Origin: a virus
Virus record (IMG/VR): IMGVR_UViG_3300037459_000089
Location: 1 to 42,971 of that record
Length of the DNA stretch: 42,971 bases
Direction: 5' to 3' (one strand)
Within the stretch, counting starts at the first letter, position 1. Each line of letters starts with the position of its first letter. This document shows, piece after piece, positions 24,368 through 42,971 of this stretch. The notes under the pieces were generated by a model. That model was not told where the DNA came from. It saw only the letters and a list, made by a program, of their open reading frames with translations, and made no database searches. The translations under genes were made by a program, and so were the position numbers.

Positions 24368-27049
24368 CTATACGCCGGGATTCTTTTGCATCCCGCGCCA
24401 GTCGATCGCTTTTGCGGCGAACCGATGCGAGACTTTGAAAGTCGTTCCGTCGACCGAACCGCCGGCGATCTGCGTGATTTGCGGCTGTTCCATACCCGTG
24501 AGCGTAGCACACTCGATCGTGCCGACGCCCATAGAATCGGTGGCACCGTACCACGCCGTATTCGACGACCCGGCTTTCGCCGCGTCCAAGTCGAGAACCG
24601 AGTCCGCGATAACCGACAACGGGTTTTGGCCGCCGACAGCGAACGGGTTCGGAACCGGCGTACTTTTCGCCGGGTCGTTGATCGACGCGACGAGTTGTTG
24701 CGCCAACGTTTCGAGTGCCGCCGGCACGATTAGCCAACGCATCGGAACATTGATCCGGATCGAAGCGTCGATACCAGTTTGCAACCGCATCCCGGCGCGA
24801 GCCGCGCCGAGACTTACCACCGACAACGCGGCGGCGGAAAGCAAGTTGCCATGATCGGCATGGAACAACGCTTTCGTATCCCCCATCGTCTCGCCGTTCG
24901 CGGCAAGAATCATCGTGTCGTAGGCGAGTGCGTTCTCAAGCCTCGCGGCCGCGAAACCCATACGCGACGGGATTTGCGTCAACATATGCAAGTCGTCGTT
25001 GATGAGCGTTTGAAACGTGATCGCGATCAAACGCCCGTAGGTGAGTAGCGCGTAGGTTTCTTCGGCTTCGCCGATCGTCGCGTAAGTATACTCGGCGCCT
25101 TCCTCGACTTTCGCTAGCGCCGGAAACTCCCCGAGCCGGATCGCGTGCAAAGTCTTGAAATCGTTCGCCGTTCGCTTTTGCATCCACGCTTGCCACGTGC
25201 GCGGCGACTCGTCGAACCCGGCCAACGCCGACTTGTTGACCGCGTCCCGCAAGATAGCGACAAAGTCGGACGTCGCGTGCCCTCCAGCTCCGCCGCCGAA
25301 CGCCGCTTGCGTTTGCAGCGCTTGATACGGCATATACGTCGTCGGTTGAAAGACAAGCTGGCAAACTTTTTGCGGCGGCAAAGTTGCCACCGATTGCCCC
25401 CACGCCTCCATATGCCGGCGTGCCATATCGGACAGCCGATGCCCTTGGAACTCGGCGCATCGACCGTGCGGCTTGCCCGCTTCCGTACCGTACGCCGGAC
25501 GCATACCGCGTTGCGTGAGAATCGCGTCGATCATACCCGGCGCAATCGAATCACGATTCAAGTCCGTCCCAACCGAAATGTTTTGGAGCGGCGAATTCCG
25601 TTCGCCCATTTCGTGCAACGCCACTTGCATAAACTCGGTTTCGGTCGTCGAGCCTTGCATCGCGGCGAGAATCGTCGTCGGTTGAATCGAATACTCGGCT
25701 CCGAGTTTCGCGATCGCTTGTTGCCGGGTCTTATCCGACCTCCGTTCGGCCGACAACGCGGCCGCGATCGCGAGCCGCACGTCGGCCGTCGTGATTAGCG
25801 GCTTGTCGGTCGAGCCGATCGGCTTGTCGGTCGCGGCGATCGTGTCCAACGACCCGGCCGACGAGTCGTCCGGCGCCGCCGGGTTGCCGGCGTCATCGGT
25901 TTCGAGCGGCGCCAGTGACGCCCGCAACACCGACTCTTGCCCGGCGTTGAAGGCGTCCATCTCGACCGGCGAATAGTCCGCCGTGATCGGCGGCAACCTT
26001 GCGTCGCCCGCGCCTTCGGACGCCACACCCGCCGTCGCGACGACGGCGGCGGCGGCGGCGGCGGCTTTCGCGGCGCCGGCTTTCTCGGCGGAGGCTTTCG
26101 CGGCCGCTTTCCGTTGTTCAGCAGTCATAGTATGCACTCCCGTTTTCGTGACGGCGTTTGACCGGCGCGGCAACGTGCCGCCCGTGAAAACTGCCCGTGT
26201 GTTTGTTGCACGACTTGCCCGCGTCGCGACTTTGACCGCGTCGCCGAGTGTACCGACCCGGTCGATCATTCCAGCGGCTATACCATCCCGGCCGACCCAA
26301 ACTGTCGCTTTCGCTACGGCTTTCCATTGCTCCGGAGAGAAGACCCTTGCGCGGCGAACGTGCCTCGTAAAGACGGCCTGAAGCGCGTCGACGATTGTTT
26401 GCGAGTGTGCTAGTTGCTCGCTCGTGACCGCGTCGACGCCCTCTTTTTTGAACGGACCAGAGCGAACCACGTGCATCGTGATCCCCTCCATCTTGTCGCG
26501 TTCCGACGCATCCTCGATCACGCCGACCGTACCGACGTTTCCGACTTGGCAAGTTTGATCGGCGAGAATCATCCGACATTGAGAAATAAGCCAGTAGCCG
26601 GCGGACGCGACAACGTCGACGCCGATGCCGATCACCGGCTTTGAGCGGTCGATCGAGCGTATAAGGTCGGCGACGTCCGCGAGCCCATCCGTCGATCCGC
26701 CCGGCGTCCGGAAGTGCGCGACGATCGCCCGGACGTCCGGCGACTCGAATGCCGCGCGAAAGTCCGCCTCGATTTCCTCGATCGAAGCGAGACCGAGAAA
26801 CCGCCGCTCGAACGCCGAAAAACCCCTGCCGATTATTCCGTGAATTGGAACGATCGAGACCGGACCCGATAGGTCGAGGCGTGACTCGGTCGGCTCGTCT
26901 TCGATAAACCCAAACTCAGCGGACATCGGCCGCAGCTCGCCGGCGTCGATCCGGCGCCGAGCCGATCCGGCGGCGGCATACATTGACCGCAAGTGATTTT
27001 CGTCGAGCGCCCACGTCTGCCGGCGTATCCTAGCTAACAGCGATCCCAT
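24368..27049 (-). CDS. Fused S49 prohead protease - scaffold - major capsid protein, 893 aa
   Basis: Residues about 60-280 form an S49 (SppA/lambda gpC-like) protease. The nucleophile is Ser149 in VVASAGYW and the base is Lys201 or Lys202 in SGPFKKEG. Residues about 308-430 are Ala/Lys-rich, then Asp/Ser/Thr-rich, like a scaffold. The C-terminal 460 residues are a major capsid protein of the Mu gpT-like type (VCQLVFQPTTYMPYQ, GEAEETYALLTYGRLI, LNDDLHML-type block, FHADHGNL). Protease-capsid fusions are known in some phages. I prefer the ATG at 27047-27049 (GGAAGGGCGG upstream); ATG at 27067 is the alternative. An internal start lies at 26126-26128. Confidence 0.85.
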   Translation of the reverse strand: MGSLLARIRRQTWALDENHLRSMYAAAGSARRRIDAGELRPMSAEFGFIEDEPTESRLDLSGPVSIVPIHGIIGRGFSAFERRFLGLASIEEIEADFRAAFESPDVRAIVAHFRTPGGSTDGLADVADLIRSIDRSKPVIGIGVDVVASAGYWLISQCRMILADQTCQVGNVGTVGVIEDASERDKMEGITMHVVRSGPFKKEGVDAVTSEQLAHSQTIVDALQAVFTRHVRRARVFSPEQWKAVAKATVWVGRDGIAAGMIDRVGTLGDAVKVATRASRATNTRAVFTGGTLPRRSNAVTKTGVHTMTAEQRKAAAKASAEKAGAAKAAAAAAAVVATAGVASEGAGDARLPPITADYSPVEMDAFNAGQESVLRASLAPLETDDAGNPAAPDDSSAGSLDTIAATDKPIGSTDKPLITTADVRLAIAAALSAERRSDKTRQQAIAKLGAEYSIQPTTILAAMQGSTTETEFMQVALHEMGERNSPLQNISVGTDLNRDSIAPGMIDAILTQRGMRPAYGTEAGKPHGRCAEFQGHRLSDMARRHMEAWGQSVATLPPQKVCQLVFQPTTYMPYQALQTQAAFGGGAGGHATSDFVAILRDAVNKSALAGFDESPRTWQAWMQKRTANDFKTLHAIRLGEFPALAKVEEGAEYTYATIGEAEETYALLTYGRLIAITFQTLINDDLHMLTQIPSRMGFAAARLENALAYDTMILAANGETMGDTKALFHADHGNLLSAAALSVVSLGAARAGMRLQTGIDASIRINVPMRWLIVPAALETLAQQLVASINDPAKSTPVPNPFAVGGQNPLSVIADSVLDLDAAKAGSSNTAWYGATDSMGVGTIECATLTGMEQPQITQIAGGSVDGTTFKVSHRFAAKAIDWRGMQKNPGV
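26137..26141 (-). promoter_or_regulatory. Internal ribosome binding site for a scaffold-capsid product
   Basis: Within the fused gene, GGGAG lies 8 bases before an in-frame ATG (26126-26128; MTAEQRK). Starting here gives a 586-residue product containing the scaffold-like region plus the capsid domain but no protease. This mirrors lambda, where Nu3 is translated from inside gene C. The spacing is ideal, and the codon lies exactly at the domain border. Confidence 0.6.
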
Positions 27050-28667
27050 ATTGCGCCGCCCTTCCATTGCCGGCCGTGCCGGTCGGACCGTCGTCGTCGT
27101 CCGGCGTCGTCACCGAAAACGACGACGCAAGCCGGAGTTCCGCGTCGTTATTGAACTTTTGCTCGATCACCATTTGTTTACGCACCCGCCGCCAGTGTTG
27201 CCCGCGCATTGCGGCTATTTCTTGCGCGCTCATATGCCCGTGCTTGTTGAGAGAAATCCACGCGGCCGATTCTTTGAGCGGGTCGATCCACGGTTTCGCC
27301 GGCATAATCCAGTCGGTCCGCATGAACCGTTCGATATCCATTGCGAACCCCGGAACCTTGATCGTGCCGCGCAGGATCGTCGTCGCCAGCCATCGCCGGC
27401 GGATCGGCATCATTAGGTGTTGCCGGACGTGCGTTCCCCGGCAACCGTAAGTGTTGTGATCTTCGATCATCGTTTGCCGCGCGCCCGAGTAATTACCTTT
27501 CGGCTCGTGCGTGATCGCTTGCCCGGACACGCCGATTCCGGCGCCGATGTTTCCAGCTTGCGCGTTGACATATTTGTCGTAGCCGTCCGCCGGGTACGAC
27601 GGCCGAATCGTGTCGACGTGCTCGCCCGGCTTTCCCCGGACAATCATTCCCGGCTCGAATAGGTTTTGCGGTTGATCGGGGTCCGGCAGATCACCCGGAA
27701 CGGACACGGCACCGGTCGCCGTCGACGTGCCGGCTAACGTCTGCGCAAGGTCGGCGTATTCGCTCGTAAAAATCAGCGACGCGCACGCTTGTATCTTTGC
27801 GGCTTCGAGTGCCCATTCGTCGTAAATATCGAGATCGCGTATTTTCTTGAGAACCGCGATCAGCTCCGACACGCCTCGCGTTTGCAACGGCCGATCTTGT
27901 TTAAACAAGTGCAGCATGTTCCGAGCCGGCACGATGATAGGATCGAGCGGCGAGAACGCCCGCAACCCGACGTCGCGTTGCGTGCGTCGCAAGTGATACG
28001 CGACCGCCGCGCCGACTTCGTTGATCTCGATGCCGCCTCGAATTTCGTGTTTCGATTTCGGATTGAGAATATGCGCGGTTTCGAGTTGCTCGGTCTCGAA
28101 GCGTTGTAGCCGCAACGGGAACTCGCGACTCGGCGTCGTCGTCATAAGAACGAAAAACTCGCCAGCCTCGACGGTTTGCTCGACGGCTTGCCGTTGCGTG
28201 TCGATCAGCGAACACCGTTGTTCGATGTCGCACAACAAACGGTCGTCGGCCCACCGATCCCAAGCCTCGTCGATTTTCTCGTTCAAGTCGTCGTCGAGTT
28301 CGCCGTCCGGTTTTTTCACGGCGGCGAACGGCATGATACCACGCGGCCCGACGACGTTGTTTCCGAACGCCCCGCGAGCCGCACGAGCCCACGGCGTATT
28401 CATCACCGCATCACGAGCACGCGCCAGAATGGTCGGCGCTTCCGGCAAGATCGATAAGTCGGCCGACCCACCTTTGGCCGTCCAATCCGACTCGCCACGG
28501 GTGCGACGCGCGGCGTCGTGAAACACCGATTGCAACAATAGCCGGGTGCGAGCACGAGCGACAAGTCGTTTGTGTGCGAATTGCGGAGCGACGACGCCGA
28601 TCAAACGGTCGAACAACACGCCCGCGTCGAACGGCGTGCCCTTGCGTTTCGGTTCGGCGGGTGTCAT
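27030..28667 (-). CDS. Portal protein, lambda gpB-like, 545 aa
   Basis: The start is in an ATGA overlap with the gpW-like gene. The protein has the lambda-type portal pattern: an N-terminal basic part, RARDAVMNTPWARAARGAF, a wing region (DEAWDRWADD), stem helices (LIAVLKKIRDLDIYDEWAL), NIGAGIGVSGQAIT and KGNYSGARQTMIEDH, then MPIRRRWL. Length fits the family (about 530 aa). It forms the dodecameric DNA gate of the capsid. The gene overlaps the fused capsid gene slightly at its end. Confidence 0.9.
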   Translation of the reverse strand: MTPAEPKRKGTPFDAGVLFDRLIGVVAPQFAHKRLVARARTRLLLQSVFHDAARRTRGESDWTAKGGSADLSILPEAPTILARARDAVMNTPWARAARGAFGNNVVGPRGIMPFAAVKKPDGELDDDLNEKIDEAWDRWADDRLLCDIEQRCSLIDTQRQAVEQTVEAGEFFVLMTTTPSREFPLRLQRFETEQLETAHILNPKSKHEIRGGIEINEVGAAVAYHLRRTQRDVGLRAFSPLDPIIVPARNMLHLFKQDRPLQTRGVSELIAVLKKIRDLDIYDEWALEAAKIQACASLIFTSEYADLAQTLAGTSTATGAVSVPGDLPDPDQPQNLFEPGMIVRGKPGEHVDTIRPSYPADGYDKYVNAQAGNIGAGIGVSGQAITHEPKGNYSGARQTMIEDHNTYGCRGTHVRQHLMMPIRRRWLATTILRGTIKVPGFAMDIERFMRTDWIMPAKPWIDPLKESAAWISLNKHGHMSAQEIAAMRGQHWRRVRKQMVIEQKFNNDAELRLASSFSVTTPDDDDGPTGTAGNGRAAQYGIAVS

Positions 28668-28897
28668 ACGGCCGGCCTCCGAGTTGTGACCCGTTGAAAC
28701 CCGCCGCCGCCCTTCAGCGCCGCGACCCGTTGCCGATATTCTTTGATGAATTTTTCGAGATCGGACAACGGCAGCATTTCGGCTTCGTTGCGTTGATACC
28801 CAAGGCGTTGTACGCGGCCCGTGACGATCGCGTCGCGTGCCGCTTCGTACAGTGCGAGCGTTGCCTCTGCGCTTGTGAGTTCGGTCGCCACGGTCAT
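28664..28897 (-). CDS. Head-tail joining protein, gpW-like, 77 aa
   Basis: The small protein is mainly helical (SAEATLALYEAARDAIVTG; LSDLEKFIKEYRQRVAALKGG) with QRLGYQRNEAEMLPLSD in between, the pattern of lambda gpW and its relatives (about 70 aa). It lies directly upstream of the portal gene as in lambda. ATG at 28895-28897 is the likely start; a TTG seven codons upstream is possible. Neither has a clear ribosome site. Confidence 0.75.
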   Translation of the reverse strand: MTVATELTSAEATLALYEAARDAIVTGRVQRLGYQRNEAEMLPLSDLEKFIKEYRQRVAALKGGGGFQRVTTRRPAV

Positions 28898-28939
28898 AGC
28901 GGCCAGGTATACGCACAACCCGGCCGCGACCGCAAGACC

Positions 28940-29209
28940 TTATTCGGAAGTGATTTCAAACAGTTTGAACTTGACCACGGCCAGTGCGACCAATTTGTCA
29001 AAGTTCGAGATTGTGAGTTTTGACCGACCGTTGATGAATCGCCAAACTTGCGGCGTCGATAGATCGGCCGCTTTCGCTATGCTCGCGTAGGTTTCCTCGC
29101 CGAATTCGATCCGCGTCCATAGCTCGTCACGGACGAAAACCGAGAACGAAACCGCCGCGTCGAGATCGGACGGCGGCCACGGCCACGCTATTTTTTTGCG
29201 TTTCGCCAT
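28940..29209 (-). CDS. Helix-turn-helix (XRE-like) regulator, 89 aa
   Basis: The start shares bases with the previous TAA (TAATG). The centre has a Cro/CI-type helix-turn-helix: TYASIAKAADLSTPQVWRFI, followed by NGRSKLTISNFDKLVALA. The basic N terminus (MAKRKKIAWPWP) may contact DNA too. It is the only clear DNA-binding regulator of the genome, placed at the end of the accessory island, coupled to the topoisomerase-like gene. Confidence 0.75.
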   Translation of the reverse strand: MAKRKKIAWPWPPSDLDAAVSFSVFVRDELWTRIEFGEETYASIAKAADLSTPQVWRFINGRSKLTISNFDKLVALAVVKFKLFEITSE

Positions 29210-30144
29210 TATTCCGCACCGTCTTTCCGACCGAGTGCAAACGCCGACACGACGCCGTAGTCGTCCGCGATCGCTTCGAGCCCGGTCCGGAGTCCATTTT
29301 CTTCGAGTATTGCGCCGCTCCAAGTCCGCTCGTCGATCTCCGCGTCGATCGTACGTTCGATCATCTCGACCAGAACGCTCGGCTGCAGCGCGTCGAGTTC
29401 CCATGACTCGTCGCCGTGTTCGTCCTTGTACTTCGCGAACCGCGCGTCGGACATTTTCGCCGGGTTCGGCGGCGGATCGTACTCGTCGACTTGTGCCCGC
29501 GTCAACGCAATACGAACGACCTCTACCTCGAAGCTCAACTTGACCGGCGTGCCGAGAAGCAAGTTTAACCGCTCGCGAATGTCGCGGGTCATATCAAGCC
29601 CGCTCGGATCGTGATCGCCCAAGTAAATCAACAAAGCCTCTTGCCCACCACGATGATAACGTTCCATCCGGCGCGCGGCGTCGTACATCGCGCTCTGACT
29701 CACGTAACCCTTGCACGCGAACACCGGCGCACGGCGTTTGCGTGCTCCGGCATGCGCGATCGAGACGAGTGCCTCTTTCTCGATCCATACCTCGACGACC
29801 CGCTCTTGCGTTTGCCAAAGGTCGAGTTTGAAAGAATGAGCGGCGGAGCGAACAATGTCGGTCGGAGATTCCCACGTCGCGACCGACCGGAGTGAACGCC
29901 CTCGATCCTCGATCGCCGACCAGTCTATGAGCCCCGCGAGGCGTCCGTCGTTGATAATCGCCCCGAGCCGCTTGTATGAGCGGGTCGTGTTTTCGATCCA
30001 CGCCCGCGCGACGAATTGATAGTAGAGTTGCCGGAGTGTCAGCGTGTAGCCTTCCTCGCCATACTCGGCAATGATTTCGTTCGCTCTTTCGATCGTCGCT
30101 TGCGACGACGCCGAAAACGCCTTGCGAATAAAACTGCGTTTCAA
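29209..30144 (-). CDS. Spo11 / topoisomerase VI subunit A-like protein, 311 aa, TTG start
   Basis: A TTG start overlaps the previous stop as TTGA (30141-30144). A winged-helix-like part with TLTLRQLYYQFV places Tyr41 and Tyr42 like the catalytic tyrosine of topoisomerase VI-A/Spo11. A Toprim fold follows: Glu122 in VEVWIEKEALVSIA, and Asp177/Asp179 in LLIYLGDHDPSGLD. All the residues needed for tyrosine and metal chemistry are visible. The ATPase subunit (GHKL) needed by topoisomerase VI is absent from the genome. Similar stand-alone proteins occur in other phages without a proven role. It is coupled to the HTH gene downstream. Confidence 0.75.
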   Translation of the reverse strand: MKRSFIRKAFSASSQATIERANEIIAEYGEEGYTLTLRQLYYQFVARAWIENTTRSYKRLGAIINDGRLAGLIDWSAIEDRGRSLRSVATWESPTDIVRSAAHSFKLDLWQTQERVVEVWIEKEALVSIAHAGARKRRAPVFACKGYVSQSAMYDAARRMERYHRGGQEALLIYLGDHDPSGLDMTRDIRERLNLLLGTPVKLSFEVEVVRIALTRAQVDEYDPPPNPAKMSDARFAKYKDEHGDESWELDALQPSVLVEMIERTIDAEIDERTWSGAILEENGLRTGLEAIADDYGVVSAFALGRKDGAE

Positions 30145-30878
30145 GTTGCACCGCCGTTCGTTCGCTTCAGTACCCGCGCCGCCGGAACGAACTCGTTGCA
30201 CCGCCCTACGCCGGCCGCTTGGTGCGCCGCGTCCGACCACTCGAACCCGTCCACCGCCGAGTACGGAACTTTCAGCCTCGCCGGCAAGTCGTCCACATTG
30301 TCGCCAAGTGCGAGCGGGGCGATCGCGATCATGTTCGTGAGCGGGTAGAAGTGACACCACTCGCCCGCCTTGCGGTATTCGGTCTCGAACTCAAGCGAGC
30401 CGCACACCGGACACACGTACACTACCGACCGATTGACGTTCGCCGACGCGACCGAGTGCCCGAGCGTGCCGTCCGCTCGGATTTGAATTCTAACCCAAGC
30501 CCGCACTTGCGAGCCGAGCATTTGAAACGGAACGTCGCCGCCGATTGATTGCAGGACTTGATTGTCGAAATAATGCTGATAACGCAAGGCGAGTTCGCGT
30601 ACGCCGAAACAGTCGAGCAGCAACGCATACGCCAACGCGTTTCGGTTGCCGGCTCTCAAAATCGACGTGCCGCGCCCGCCGCGAGTGTCGTCGTAGACGT
30701 TCGGACCCCACTCGAACCCGAAAAACGTCTCGCCGACTTTCGCCGGCGCGTACGGCAGCAAATCCTTAATTTCCGCGACGCCGTTTCGCACACACACTCG
30801 ATCGACCGAAACGATCCGATCGTCGAGCCAGCCGTGATAGACCCGGTCCGTCAAGGTTGCCGGTTGTTCTTGTGTCAT
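30141..30878 (-). CDS. DUF6166-like protein with zinc ribbon, 245 aa
   Basis: The start at 30876-30878 has GGGGA six bases upstream; a GTG at 30930-30932 is possible. The N-terminal half (RVYHGWLDDRIVSVDRV, FFGFEWGPNVYDD, ALAYALLLDCFG) resembles DUF6166. The C-terminal half has YVCPVCGSLEF and a second weak cysteine, a zinc-ribbon-like feature. The function is unknown. It is coupled by a TTGA overlap to the topoisomerase-like gene, so the two may act together. Confidence 0.55.
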   Translation of the reverse strand: MTQEQPATLTDRVYHGWLDDRIVSVDRVCVRNGVAEIKDLLPYAPAKVGETFFGFEWGPNVYDDTRGGRGTSILRAGNRNALAYALLLDCFGVRELALRYQHYFDNQVLQSIGGDVPFQMLGSQVRAWVRIQIRADGTLGHSVASANVNRSVVYVCPVCGSLEFETEYRKAGEWCHFYPLTNMIAIAPLALGDNVDDLPARLKVPYSAVDGFEWSDAAHQAAGVGRCNEFVPAARVLKRTNGGAT

Positions 30879-30963
30879 TGGTTCCCCGCTTTCCCGCCGC
30901 TCGGCGGCGGCGTATACTTCTTTCGATTCCACCGACGCCGGCGTTACGATCCGCCGCCCGTCG

Positions 30964-31000
30964 CGACCGGCCGGATTTGAGCCCCGGTCGGTCGTTTTTT
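30964..31000 (+). terminator. Plus-strand intrinsic terminator at the end of a minus-strand gene
   Basis: On the plus strand, an 11-pair stem (30964-30974 with 30984-30994, one G-T pair) has a 9-base loop and is followed by six T. It is the strongest hairpin-plus-T signal I see on the plus strand. The nearest gene ends here on the other strand (TAA at 30999-31001), so it would stop antisense transcripts running rightward. Confidence 0.6.
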
Positions 31001-31205
31001 AATCCTCGATCGCGATCAGCCCTTTGTCGGCGAGTGTGTCGAGTTCCGACTTATTTTCGATCTTGCCGTCGCTCCACAAGAGCAACCCCGGAATACCGGT
31101 CGCCCGGATCGTCAAACCCCGATCGAGTCTTTGCAAAATCCCGAAGCCCCGCACCGTCAGACCGCGAGCGATAATTTCGGCGTAATCGGCTTTCGATATT
31201 GTCAT
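30999..31205 (-). CDS. Small hypothetical protein, 68 aa
   Basis: The ATG at 31203-31205 lies inside the previous gene in another frame (155-base overlap). The product has LTVRGFGILQRLDRGLTIR followed by ELDTLADKGLIAIED, a short alpha/beta pattern that could be a small winged-helix or a part of one. The family is not recognised. It precedes the plus-strand terminator. Confidence 0.55.
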   Translation of the reverse strand: MTISKADYAEIIARGLTVRGFGILQRLDRGLTIRATGIPGLLLWSDGKIENKSELDTLADKGLIAIED

Positions 31206-31449
31206 GCGTCGTCGCCGAACCGTTGCGACTCCGACAATCGCACGAACTTGCGTCGACGAGCCCCACGATCGAACCCGGCGTCGAACAATGCCGACACGAC
31301 GCCTTGCCGTTTCGTGAGACCTCAAAGCGCAGAACCGCAGCTTTCAGCCAACGGCCGCAATGCGTCGTCGTGCCGCCCACGTCGGCGTAGTGTGTCTCGC
31401 GGCCGTGCGACGTGCGGACGATCACCGTCTTATATTGTTTTAGTTTCAT
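31051..31449 (-). CDS. Small zinc-binding-like protein, up to 132 aa
   Basis: The start is in an ATGA overlap (31446-31449). The first 60 residues look protein-like, with HYADVGGTTTHCGRWL and CRHCSTPG suggesting a Cys/His zinc site. The last 50 residues, which overlap the next gene by 155 bases, are Arg/Ser-rich and look like the shadow of that gene. The functional protein may end near residue 85, or the stop may have been lost by mutation. Confidence 0.5.
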   Translation of the reverse strand: MKLKQYKTVIVRTSHGRETHYADVGGTTTHCGRWLKAAVLRFEVSRNGKASCRHCSTPGSIVGLVDASSCDCRSRNGSATTHDNIESRLRRNYRSRSDGAGLRDFAKTRSGFDDPGDRYSGVALVERRQDRK

Positions 31450-31649
31450 AGTACCGGCATCACAAAAGTTTTGCCCTTTGACGGACACCGGGAGACCTCT
31501 AAGACGATCCGAGCCCTCAGTTCCGCTTCGAGCGTTTCGAGCGCTTGCGACGACACGCGCACAACCGGAAAATCGCCGCCGCGCATGTTCTTTATCTTTT
31601 CGAGAATGAATTTCCGAACGTGAGTTTTGTTGATAAGTGTGCCGATCAT
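31446..31649 (-). CDS. Possible histone-fold protein, 67 aa
   Basis: The start is in an ATGA overlap (31646-31649). Helix 1 is KTHVRKFILEKIKNM; the loop contains VVRVSSQALE; helix 2 (ETLEAELRARIVLEVSR) is followed by KGKTF. Archaeal and bacterial histones show the same order: helix, then R-V-S-x-x-A-x-x-x-L, then a long helix, then a G-[RK]-K-T-type turn. The third helix is missing here. The match is by pattern only; an unrelated small helical protein is the alternative. Confidence 0.5.
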   Translation of the reverse strand: MIGTLINKTHVRKFILEKIKNMRGGDFPVVRVSSQALETLEAELRARIVLEVSRCPSKGKTFVMPVL

Positions 31650-31903
31650 TCGCAACCCTCCGCCAGCGCGGCTGAAATACAAAGAAGCGTGCGGCCGTCG
31701 AGTTGAACGTCAAACCGCTTAGCGGCCCTTTTGATGAGTGCAGCCCAAACCGGTCGGCGGTCGCCCCTACTAACGGCGTGCATGATCGCCGACGCGATAT
31801 TCTCATCAGCGATTCCTACCGCCCATTCGTGAGCCACGGGTATGCGCCTTCCTCTATGACGCGGTGGCCGCAATGCCTTTGCGATTCTATCCAGGCCGAC
31901 CAT
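31646..31903 (-). CDS. Paralogue A with LDGRTLLC motif, 85 aa
   Basis: The start shares bases with the preceding TAA (TAATG), and the gene ends in ATGA. The C terminus (LIKRAAKRFDVQLDGRTLLC then ISAALAEG) is similar to the neighbouring 120-residue protein, including the exact string LDGRTLLC followed by a short helix. The N-terminal halves do not match clearly. No known family. The pair probably arose by duplication. Confidence 0.6.
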   Translation of the reverse strand: MVGLDRIAKALRPPRHRGRRIPVAHEWAVGIADENIASAIMHAVSRGDRRPVWAALIKRAAKRFDVQLDGRTLLCISAALAEGCE

Positions 31904-32265
31904 TACGACACACCGCCTCTCGCGTCCGACACGCCGCAACCCTCGTCGAGTTCGGCGTCGGCCGTGACCGTGTCGCGTCGCCGTTGTCCGACTTCGATCG
32001 CGTCCGTGTTCACCGCTTGCCGCTCGACGGCGTGCGCCAGTGCGCGAGCCACGCACAAAAGCGTGCGCCCGTCCAGCCGCGTTCTCGATAAGCCGGCGGC
32101 CGCATTGAGAAGGTCGACCCACTCGGTCGCGACGACGTCGACACGCGACGACACCCCGCCAATGTTTACGGCGAGAACCGAAAGCGCGTCGAGAACGCGG
32201 ACCGACCGATTCGATCCGTTCACCGTTTTCCTCAAACGAACGTCAATGTTGCCAGTCGAAAACAT
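31903..32265 (-). CDS. Paralogue B with LDGRTLLC motif, 120 aa
   Basis: This is the first gene of the accessory island. CGGAG eight bases before the ATG at 32263-32265 decides the start; a GTG at 32272-32274 is possible. EWVDLLNAAAGLSRTR, then LDGRTLLCVARALAHAVERQ, matches the C terminus of its neighbour. The tail is acidic and Gly-rich. A promoter-like site lies about 60-85 bases upstream, just after the packaging terminator. No known function. Confidence 0.6.
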   Translation of the reverse strand: MFSTGNIDVRLRKTVNGSNRSVRVLDALSVLAVNIGGVSSRVDVVATEWVDLLNAAAGLSRTRLDGRTLLCVARALAHAVERQAVNTDAIEVGQRRRDTVTADAELDEGCGVSDARGGVS

Positions 32266-32321
32266 TTTGAGCACTCCGAAAGGAGAATTCCACCGGCCGG
32301 CGACACCGCCGGCACACCCAC

Positions 32322-32350
32322 AACCTATCGTCGCGTTGTTCCCCCGTCAA
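32322..32350 (-). promoter_or_regulatory. Promoter-like site for the accessory island
   Basis: On the minus strand TTGACG (32345-32350) is followed by a 17-base spacer and TAGGTT (32322-32327). The -35 has five of six consensus bases; the -10 keeps the three most conserved positions (T, A and final T). It lies between the packaging terminator and the first island gene, where a promoter is needed. Confidence 0.5.
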
Positions 32351-32381: not shown

Positions 32382-32407
32382 AAAAAAACCGCCGGATTGC
32401 CCGGCGG
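32382..32407 (-). terminator. Strong intrinsic terminator after the packaging block
   Basis: On the minus strand CCGCCGG, a 5-base loop (GCAAT), CCGGCGG and seven T. The 7-pair stem is perfect. It lies 34 bases past the stop of the zinc-ribbon gene and separates terminase transcripts from the island. Confidence 0.85.
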
Positions 32408-32440: not shown

Positions 32441-32935
32441 TCACGTGTGCAACACCCGAAACCGCGTCAACGCATACCCGGTTCGCGGGTCCGTGCAGTT
32501 TTGACATTGATAGTAATACAACGAACCCGGGCGGCCGTCCTTCAGCTTTGATCGGCCGTACTTATGCACACGCTCCGAGTTGCACGTCGGGCAACGAACC
32601 ATCGGGATTGATTGAATCGCCGGCGGCACCGGTTGCGCGCCGTCTTTCGGTTGTACGGTCCACGGCGTCGATTGCGGCCGTGCCCCGCCCGACAGTTTCC
32701 ACGGTATATCCGACTTGCCGGTCGGCTCGAAAGGCTCGTCGGGTTTTTCCCTCGCCGGGTTGACCAGCTCGGCAACCGCCGGCGCCGGCAGTTGCTTTTC
32801 TTCGGGCGCATCTTCCGGCGGTTTGTCACGCCCCGCGACTTGCTCCGCCAGTTGCGATTTCTGTCCGATGATCGGCGGCGTGTCACCCGTCAAGGTTTCC
32901 GCTAGATCGTCGGGGATGCTCGTTTCGTGCGTCAA
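32441..32935 (-). CDS. Pro-rich protein with C-terminal zinc ribbon, 164 aa, TTG start
   Basis: A TTG three bases after the terminase stop is preceded by GGAG and gives a protein that begins MTHETSIPDDL. Longer in-frame versions run back through the terminase gene and are unlikely. The first 115 residues are Pro/Glu/Lys-rich and disordered. Residues about 118-150 hold MVRCPTCNSERV and YYQCQNCTDP, a zinc ribbon. It may be a terminase partner or regulator; the function is unknown. It is followed by the strong terminator. Confidence 0.65.
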   Translation of the reverse strand: MTHETSIPDDLAETLTGDTPPIIGQKSQLAEQVAGRDKPPEDAPEEKQLPAPAVAELVNPAREKPDEPFEPTGKSDIPWKLSGGARPQSTPWTVQPKDGAQPVPPAIQSIPMVRCPTCNSERVHKYGRSKLKDGRPGSLYYYQCQNCTDPRTGYALTRFRVLHT

Positions 32936-32937
32936 TG

Positions 32938-34956
32938 CTAACTCCGGCGGAGCCCCCGGCCCGGCGGCCGGCTCGACGCCGGCGGCCGATCCGGACGCCG
33001 GGGCGGCGCCGGCATCACCGCCGGCGTCGGCGGGTTTTCCGGTATCGTCAATAGGTTGTGAAAGTCCGCGATCGCCATCGCGTACACCCTCACGTCGAGA
33101 TAATGCACCGCTTGATTCGCCGTCTTGGGTTCCCACACTTTTACCCGATGATTTCGTCCGTGAATCTTTTTGTTTACCCATACCTGATGTTCTCCGCAAA
33201 TTTGCTCGAAGTAGTCCGCCGACGTGTCGGCGTGAAAGTTACACGACCCCGGCTCGCCGGCCGGAACCCTCAACAGTCTATGCAATGAGTCTTTGTAGTG
33301 CCCGACGTTGATATGATAAAGCGTCACGCCTCGCGGGTCGATCGTACCTTTGAGCGTATATTGCACCCGCGTCGGCTTGATCGGCCAGTCGGCACGGTCG
33401 CGGCCCTTGACCGCATACACTCCCGGCGTGCTTTTCGCGAACTCGTAGACCTCCGCCGTCCGATATGCCGAGTCGACCGCCATCCACGACGCCGGCATCG
33501 TCAACCCCTCCGATCCGATCACCGGGTAGCCGGCCGAACCGATTGAAATCAAGTCCTCGAATGAATGACAAACACCCTCGCGAATCGAGTACGACCGGCG
33601 GCCACGGCCAAAACCGACCAGCTCATACACAAAGTAGTCGAGTTGCACGTCGACGCCCATGACGATCGCCTTGACGCCGGCCGGCACGTGCCCGCGCGGG
33701 TATGAGTTCTCGGTCCGGCCGGAGATCGCGGTCGGTTCGATTTTCTCGGCGACGTCCGTGAACGGTTCGCCGAGCCATTGATTCGTGAATACCCGTAGTT
33801 TCTCGACCTCGTCTTTGCACCGCAGAAATTGCACGGCCGTATCGGTGAAACTCCGCCACGGCGAAAGTCCGCAGCCGATATGATATCCGATTCGCCGGGT
33901 CTCTCGCGGCGGCTTGTCGGTCGCCGGCCGCCATTGCACCCGCGCAGCCTCGCCGGCTTCCGGCTCCCCGCCCTCGATCGCATAGACGACGCGAGCACGG
34001 TCGACGATGCTCGGACAGTCGATCGGCAACCGCTCGACTATCTTCAAGCCACGTTGAACCCACACGCCACGCGCGACCATAAACCACGCCGCCGGCGAGC
34101 GTGTGCCGAGCCCGCCGTCGCGTATTTTCGCCTTGCATTCGCAGCACTCATAGTAGGCGAGCCCGCCGCCCTCGATCGCGTCGACGGTCTTTCCGGCCGG
34201 CCACTTGATTTGTCGCAGCGACAAGACTTGATACGTGCCACACTCCGGACAGGGACAATGGAATTCGCGACGGTCAGTTTTTTGCAACGCCGTCCAGCCG
34301 GCGGCGTCCGGTCGAGTCGGACACGTCGTCGCCATGACTCGACCACGATGCCCCCACGTCGTTATCCGGTCGGCCGCTAGTGTGAGAACCTCACCGAGTT
34401 TCCCGGCTTGCACTTCGCATTGATCCAGCTCGTCGAAAAACAAATACCGAGCGAGTTTTCGGATCAGCGTACGCGGCGCACGCGGCCACGCCATATTGAT
34501 CGAGCGGTTTCCGCGTAGCGTCACCTTGCCGGCACTAGCGAAACCGTCGTGTGGAATATGCCGGCGGAGTCGCGGCGACGCCTCGATCATTCGCTTGATC
34601 CGGCCGGTCGCCTCGTCGGCGGCGTCGTCCTCTGTCGGATGAACGACGATGGATTGACCCGGATCGCAGTCAATCGCATACCCCATACAGTTATATAGAC
34701 TCTCGGAACCGCCGGACCGGTTCGACTTGATAACCAGAACCGACAGAACATCTGGGTTCGCGAATTGATCTTGCGGCTCTAAGAAATAAGGCGTCCGCCC
34801 GACGTCGTATCCGCCGGGTTGTGCCGCGTCCTCGGCAGCGAATACCCGGTATTTCGTTGCCCATTGCGTCGGCGTGAGTCGTTGCGGAACCGCGATCCGG
34901 TCCTCGATCACATTCGCGGCGTCGAAAGACAAACCACTACCGACCGCGATCTTCAC
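32938..34956 (-). CDS. terL: Terminase large subunit, GpA family, 672 aa
   Basis: This is the ATPase-nuclease motor that packages DNA into the prohead. The ATPase shows an adenine-side/Walker A region around residues 75-88 (VIKSNRSGGSESLYN), with a deviant P-loop as in lambda gpA, and Walker B at LFFDELDQ (Asp175, Glu176). A zinc-like insert with CPCPECG and CCECK lies at 234-274. The nuclease domain begins at VMGVDVQLDY (Asp436). The C terminus is Pro/Arg-rich. GTG at 34954-34956 with a GGAGAGGGG upstream is the likely start, overlapping the small subunit by 20 bases. Length fits GpA (about 640-670). Confidence 0.93.
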   Translation of the reverse strand: MKIAVGSGLSFDAANVIEDRIAVPQRLTPTQWATKYRVFAAEDAAQPGGYDVGRTPYFLEPQDQFANPDVLSVLVIKSNRSGGSESLYNCMGYAIDCDPGQSIVVHPTEDDAADEATGRIKRMIEASPRLRRHIPHDGFASAGKVTLRGNRSINMAWPRAPRTLIRKLARYLFFDELDQCEVQAGKLGEVLTLAADRITTWGHRGRVMATTCPTRPDAAGWTALQKTDRREFHCPCPECGTYQVLSLRQIKWPAGKTVDAIEGGGLAYYECCECKAKIRDGGLGTRSPAAWFMVARGVWVQRGLKIVERLPIDCPSIVDRARVVYAIEGGEPEAGEAARVQWRPATDKPPRETRRIGYHIGCGLSPWRSFTDTAVQFLRCKDEVEKLRVFTNQWLGEPFTDVAEKIEPTAISGRTENSYPRGHVPAGVKAIVMGVDVQLDYFVYELVGFGRGRRSYSIREGVCHSFEDLISIGSAGYPVIGSEGLTMPASWMAVDSAYRTAEVYEFAKSTPGVYAVKGRDRADWPIKPTRVQYTLKGTIDPRGVTLYHINVGHYKDSLHRLLRVPAGEPGSCNFHADTSADYFEQICGEHQVWVNKKIHGRNHRVKVWEPKTANQAVHYLDVRVYAMAIADFHNLLTIPENPPTPAVMPAPPRRPDRPPASSRPPGRGLRRS

Positions 34957-42388: not shown

Positions 42389-42971
42389 GACGCAACCGCC
42401 GCAGTTTTTCTCTTGCGACCGGCGGCGCCTTTCGGGTGTTTCTTTGCGGCGTCGCGTTTCGCAATCAAATCCTCGTCGCTCGCCGGATCGTCGGCCGACT
42501 CGGCGTTCGACAAGAGTGTCCGGTTCGAGTCTTTGTCTTTCGCGTCGCGTGCCCTTTGTTCTTTCGACCGCTCGCCGCCGGCGCATGTTTCGACGAGTTT
42601 CTCGGTCGCGGTTTGCTTCGTCGCGATCACGTCCGGCGTGAGCGTCGGCGCGACGGCCGCGTCGTCCATGAACGGAAAGATTACCTGACCGACTTTCGCG
42701 ATCGCCCTCGCCTCGATCGCGTTCTCACCGTGCCGCTCGACGCACTCGACGAAACCGGTCAAGTGCCAGTCGTCGCGGATCAGCTCGATACGTGCGACGC
42801 CGTTGTCGTCTTTCGCCGGGTCGAGCACGTGCAAGTGTGTCAGCTCGTGATCGGCAACCGCGATCGACCGTTCGGGTTTCATGTTCGTGAACTTGTCGCC
42901 GTCGATGATTATCACGGCGTCGAGTTCGGCAAGTAGCTTCATTTTCCAATCGGTCAACATGACTTTCGCGG
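42385..42971 (-). CDS. Putative phage metallopeptidase, C-terminal part (continues at base 321)
   Basis: This is the right-end part of the gene that starts at 319-321; codons 108-252 plus the stop are at 42385-42822, and 42823-42971 repeats the left end. After the HELTH zinc motif come VERHGENAIEARAI and a long charged tail rich in Lys, Glu and Ala with KHPKGAAGRKRK near the end. The catalytic HExxH is intact, and the open frame crosses the join without disruption. The gene ends in a GTGA overlap with the zinc-ribbon gene. Confidence 0.75.
   Translation of the reverse strand, partial: AKVMLTDWKMKLLAELDAVIIIDGDKFTNMKPERSIAVADHELTHLHVLDPAKDDNGVARIELIRDDWHLTGFVECVERHGENAIEARAIAKVGQVIFPFMDDAAVAPTLTPDVIATKQTATEKLVETCAGGERSKEQRARDAKDKDSNRTLLSNAESADDPASDEDLIAKRDAAKKHPKGAAGRKRKTAAVAS
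42823..42971. repeat. Right copy of the terminal redundancy
   Basis: These 149 bases repeat 1-149 with one difference (a at 42949, c at 127). See the left copy for the meaning. Confidence 0.95.

Follow-up and report, generated by a model that had tools for sequence, protein, structure and literature searches.

Eight small genes between the terminase and head genes of a GpA-terminase phage: probable moron-type cargo that includes a Mini-A gene

Introduction

Why do eight small genes lie between the terminase and the head genes of a phage, and do they work together? The locus that raises this question is found in a single IMG/VR viral contig (IMGVR_UViG_3300037459_000089), which was analysed over its full length of 42,971 nucleotides and is referred to as the window. 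A first-pass annotation, made from the letters alone, had described the genes as an accessory island with its own promoter, the products of which might form a joint DNA-acting system. Our analysis supports the accessory nature of the island, and nothing shows that its genes form one system.

Results

Genome setting

The ends of the window, positions 1-149 and 42823-42971, are identical except for one mismatch. As this overlap corresponds to a terminal redundancy of 149 bp, the genome is probably complete and circularly mapping with a size of about 42.8 kb. According to codon statistics convincing coding signal lies on the minus strand over the whole contig. The head genes comprise a GpA-type terL, a lambda-family portal gene, an S49 protease-capsid fusion and a gpW-like gene. 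One 899-aa ORF (24368-27067) carries both the S49 protease and the major capsid domains, and a DUF5131/phrog_2045 protein is encoded at 776-2002. Rfam and tRNA scans were empty, and no tyrosine integrase was found in the near-complete genome.

Layout of the island

Eight minus-strand ORFs extend from 32265 to 28940 between a terL/Zn-ribbon pair and the gpW and portal genes, confirming the seven or eight inserted small genes listed previously. The Zn-ribbon protein (32441-33181, minus strand), encoded by an ORF 3' of terL, is a core packaging neighbour outside the island: a homologue directly follows terL in relative L126 (42% over 58 aa), and Zn-ribbon ORFs are likewise located 3' of terL in L112 and L116. 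Since a Zn-ribbon ORF after terL recurs in relatives we assign this gene to the core and place the insertion between Zn-ribbon and gpW.

The first two ORFs, ld120 (31903-32265, minus strand) and ld85 (31646-31903, minus strand), are the LDGRTLLC paralogues 1 and 2 of an unknown family; their paralogy, also noted in the first-pass annotation, is confirmed (48% over 33 aa). The codon signal is weakest in ld85, the one island ORF whose reading frame is not favoured by codon statistics. The two paralogue genes are followed, again on the minus strand, by the gene for a 67-aa alpha3-truncated-histone-like protein (31446-31649; phmmer, hhalign and shuffles), a CxxC zinc-binding-like ORF (zn132, 31051-31449) and a 68-aa ORF (s68, 30999-31205), the latter two being called from ORF and codon statistics. 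The final 50 codons of zn132 overlap s68, and coding signal is absent there; s68 has no match to any family in Pfam or phrog. The remaining three minus-strand genes encode a DUF6166-domain protein (30141-30878), which had been recognised as DUF6166-like before and scores above the Pfam cut-off (PF19663, 31.1 bits versus 27), a Mini-A protein with a Topo VI-A/Spo11-like winged-helix domain (WHD) and a TOPRIM domain (29209-30144, TTG start; phrog_6247), and a small HTH protein with weak HTH matches only (28940-29209). Beyond the island lies the gene for the gpW-like head-tail adaptor (28664-28918, minus strand; phrog_118, E 5e-6), the true start of which is probably the ATG near 28897.

Stop-start overlaps of the ATGA, TAATG or TTGA type are present at five junctions, namely ld120/ld85, ld85/histone-like gene, histone-like gene/zn132, DUF6166/Mini-A and Mini-A/HTH. 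The proposed coupling by overlapping codons is thus seen at these junctions but does not run through the island as one string, as a 121-nt gap and a 12-bp hairpin (30963-30995) divide it after s68 into groups of five and three genes. The overlaps suggest co-translation inside each block, which would fit a functional operon. The DUF6166-Mini-A-HTH section reads on into gpW.

Terminator, second hairpin and promoter

An intrinsic terminator (CCGCCGG-GCAAT-CCGGCGG-T7) is located at 32389-32407 on the minus strand and ends the terS-terL-Zn transcript. In a strict scan it is the sole minus-strand terminator of the window, with 0.2 expected from shuffles, so that the strong terminator postulated for this site is real and well above chance. 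It had, however, been taken to open the island, whereas it follows the Zn-ribbon gene, which belongs with terL. A wider scan adds just one equally strong hairpin in the window, the 12-bp hairpin with its T-run between the two gene blocks, and both strong hairpins consequently fall in or at the island. The terminator-like hairpin at 30963-30995 faces the plus strand, and no plus-strand gene is apparent there. An own promoter for the island could not be substantiated: the best sigma-70-type site, TTGACG-17-TAGGTT at 32350, does not rise above chance level, as the strand holds 10 sites of this quality and 10.3 are expected from shuffles.

The terL-portal gap in relatives

We collected terL relatives from Planctomycetota genomes and, via alignment, from viral contigs, and determined the terL-portal gap in the 68 relatives in which both genes could be placed. 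Terminase, gpW and portal genes are not always contiguous: the gap varies between 0.2 and 6.7 kb. It is shorter than 1 kb in 51 of the 68 relatives and at least 2.5 kb in nine, as against 4.3 kb in the window, so that the island is inserted between genes which in relatives lie next to each other. In the long gaps read in detail, the cargo includes thymidylate synthase (ThyA), dATP/dGTP diphosphohydrolase, PRA-PH/MazG-like, methyltransferase, PALP or SASA esterase genes. Terminase-portal cargo of 2.6-6.7 kb is present in the related viral contigs L148, L166, L168, L171, L172, L174, L176 and L190. As eight of the nine relatives with long gaps seem to belong to a single marine clade, the independent events are few.

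For close relatives, terL, DUF6166, capsid and LDGRTLLC queries were all without match in the viral contigs; the terL query returned nothing from genome contigs and the DUF6166 query nothing from phages. Matches of an LDGRTLLC profile in Planctomycetota were rejected, being at chance (best E 6e-4 per genome, 382 genomes). Because no relative with the exact island was found, the evidence for acquired cargo is the variable gap rather than a vacant site in a near relative. There are no flanking repeats of note around the island, and its tetranucleotide composition shows no shift that would mark it as foreign.

The Spo11-like protein is a Mini-A

The reading of one product as Spo11/topoisomerase VI-A-like holds: the protein matches phrog_6247 with an E of 7e-99 and is 40.7% identical, over 95% of the query, to gp49 of Pseudomonas phage NP1, a named Mini-A example (PMC7614492). 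Mini-A proteins are truncated Top6A homologues in phages and archaeal viruses (PMC7614492, PMC8185306, PMC11302465). Judged by these matches, the protein is a member of Mini-A, a previously named phage family. It retains the motifs LRQLYY, WIEKEA and GDHDPSG, and R38, Y41, Y42, E122, D177 and D179 are invariant in 23 relatives; from what is known of the family, we take the motifs with Y41/Y42, E122 and D177/D179 to be the catalytic tyrosine, the TOPRIM glutamate and the DxD, respectively. Foldseek with a model of the protein recovered generic Rossmann/TOPRIM-like folds and not Topo VI-A, and the Mini-A alignment, used as a profile against the PDB, gave no match. A search of the contig for GHKL, the Topo VI-B part, with PF02518 was empty, with control genomes being positive in 14 of 14 cases.

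In NP1, Mini-A has ligase, Sak4, primase, Cas4 exonuclease and helicase genes as neighbours, and at another locus a polymerase and endonuclease V are nearby. Clusters of neighbours in viral contigs, read by eye, comprise tyrosine integrase, D5-type primase-helicase and exonuclease; at 19 loci an integrase-like member of such clusters lies no further than about 5 kb from Mini-A. The placement among head genes is unusual. Near two other Mini-A genes we observed ORFs resembling GHKL ATPases, L006:7773-9212 (HATPase_c, E 8e-4, below cut-off) and L010:4946-6373 (no Pfam match), which might possibly form a split type IIB topoisomerase.

None of the 50 Mini-A viral contigs searched, several of which are fragments, contains DUF6166, while a control genome was positive; the gene set thus does not travel together. 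The other small genes of the island have no detectable relatives in Mini-A loci, and PADLOC defence models, a library without anti-defence systems, matched none of the eight proteins. The search of related phages for the same gene set, suggested by the first-pass annotation, hence found the traceable components scattered, the outcome which that annotation itself had named as speaking against a joint system.

The 67-aa histone-like protein

In the PDB, the 67-aa protein matches best with HTkC (9F2C), an archaeal histone of the face-to-face type, at a phmmer E of 0.077, non-significant alone. As compared by hhalign, the protein matches an alpha3-histone profile with 71% probability, an approximate value as the profile includes a partly reconstructed HTkC row. 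This profile was built from ten sequences, HTkC and nine from Planctomycetota genomes, and the HTkC query (55 residues) contains a first methionine and a few C-terminal residues that were added by family pattern beyond the letters of the PDB alignment; since the sequence was reused in the profile and the pairwise comparison, these scores are approximate. The score of the 67-aa protein was reached by none of 2000 shuffles and is the best among the 413 ORFs of the window. A single-sequence model shows two helices only at low confidence (pLDDT 58.7). The sole histone match in viral contigs, in L204, was discarded as it lies within an unrelated 883-aa ORF. Taken together, the earlier histone-like reading holds weakly, and by sequence the protein is possibly an alpha3-truncated miniature histone.

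Discussion

We consider it likely that the island is moron-type cargo at a variable terL(-Zn ribbon)-gpW/portal site of a GpA-terminase phage, probably consisting of two blocks with independent genes. The blocks, ld120-ld85-histone-like gene-zn132-s68 and, behind the hairpin, DUF6166-Mini-A-HTH, were probably acquired separately, and their genes probably act independently. Mini-A is probably a DNA-cutting enzyme that serves recombination or topology. It would act as a dimer, with the tyrosines of both winged-helix domains attacking DNA and the TOPRIM domain holding Mg2+, resulting in a Spo11-like break, either transient or permanent. The neighbours of Mini-A in other phages suggest that the phage may employ it for recombination-dependent replication or topology. 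The histone-like protein may bind or bend DNA.

Two alternatives give the genes a common task. In a late packaging or genome-structuring module Mini-A would resolve tangled or branched DNA ahead of terminase and the small histone would pre-compact it; the site between terL and gpW within the minus-strand gene cluster and the topoisomerase-like nature of Mini-A agree with this, but no member was found at this site in relatives of the same terminase type (one search without positive control in the searched set) and the terminator parts the island from terL transcription, making such a module unlikely. A single DNA-acting operon, in which the histone-like and HTH proteins steer Mini-A to cut DNA of the host or of rival phages for anti-defence, superinfection exclusion or host takeover, could draw on the translational coupling within each block, the intact Mini-A active site and a possible DNA-wrapping protein in the adjoining block. 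Yet neither the 0 of 50 Mini-A contigs with DUF6166 nor the occurrence of Mini-A elsewhere beside replication and integration genes (integrases, primase-helicases, Cas4-type exonucleases, ligase, Sak4) conforms to the joint system originally proposed, the PADLOC models yielded no match and the hairpin splits the island, so that we regard this operon as likewise unlikely.

A further reading, a two-component chromatin-cutting system of the phage directed against host or competitor DNA, would have the stand-alone miniature histone shape the substrate of a Spo11-like Mini-A nuclease that has no partner and is controlled by the HTH protein; it appears very improbable. That Mini-A is a remnant, or a selfish element of recombinase-like type that does nothing for the phage, is hardly credible: its distribution is sporadic and integrase-like genes occur near it at the 19 loci mentioned, but the active site is intact and the codon signal is in frame. 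Moron-type cargo thus remains our preferred explanation.

Mini-A belongs to the Spo11 family and has been reported from phages, but the reviews cited above give no tested function for it. The copy described here is intact, no B subunit was found with it, and it lies among head genes, outside the usual replication neighbourhood; it thus offers a compact case for asking if Mini-A can act on its own. If confirmed, a tailed phage with a stand-alone miniature histone would broaden the category of 'phage histones'; otherwise the island is an example of the variability of the terminase-portal gap among GpA-terminase phages.

Like phage morons and the terL-portal cargo of relatives, the island consists of extra genes between conserved head genes with a terminator ahead. 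It differs from morons in that it has no recognisable own promoter among the sigma-70-type sites scanned, and from the cargo of relatives, which carries ThyA, MazG-like, methyltransferase or esterase genes. The 67-aa protein resembles alpha3-truncated histones (HTkC, 9F2C) in its profile match over almost the whole chain, the RVS...ALE pattern and a chain end just past the loop-2 region, but has an insertion of about 10 residues between helices 1 and 2 and lacks the final D of RKTxxxD; described 'phage histones', in contrast, have a C-terminal helix, which is missing here. With the Mini-A family (NP1 gp49; phrog_6247) the protein shares its length, the LRQLYY tyrosine motif of the WHD, the TOPRIM glutamate, GDHDPSG and the lack of a B subunit, none being found in the window. 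Whereas known Mini-A genes are located in replication/recombination or integrase regions, this one lies between terL and gpW.
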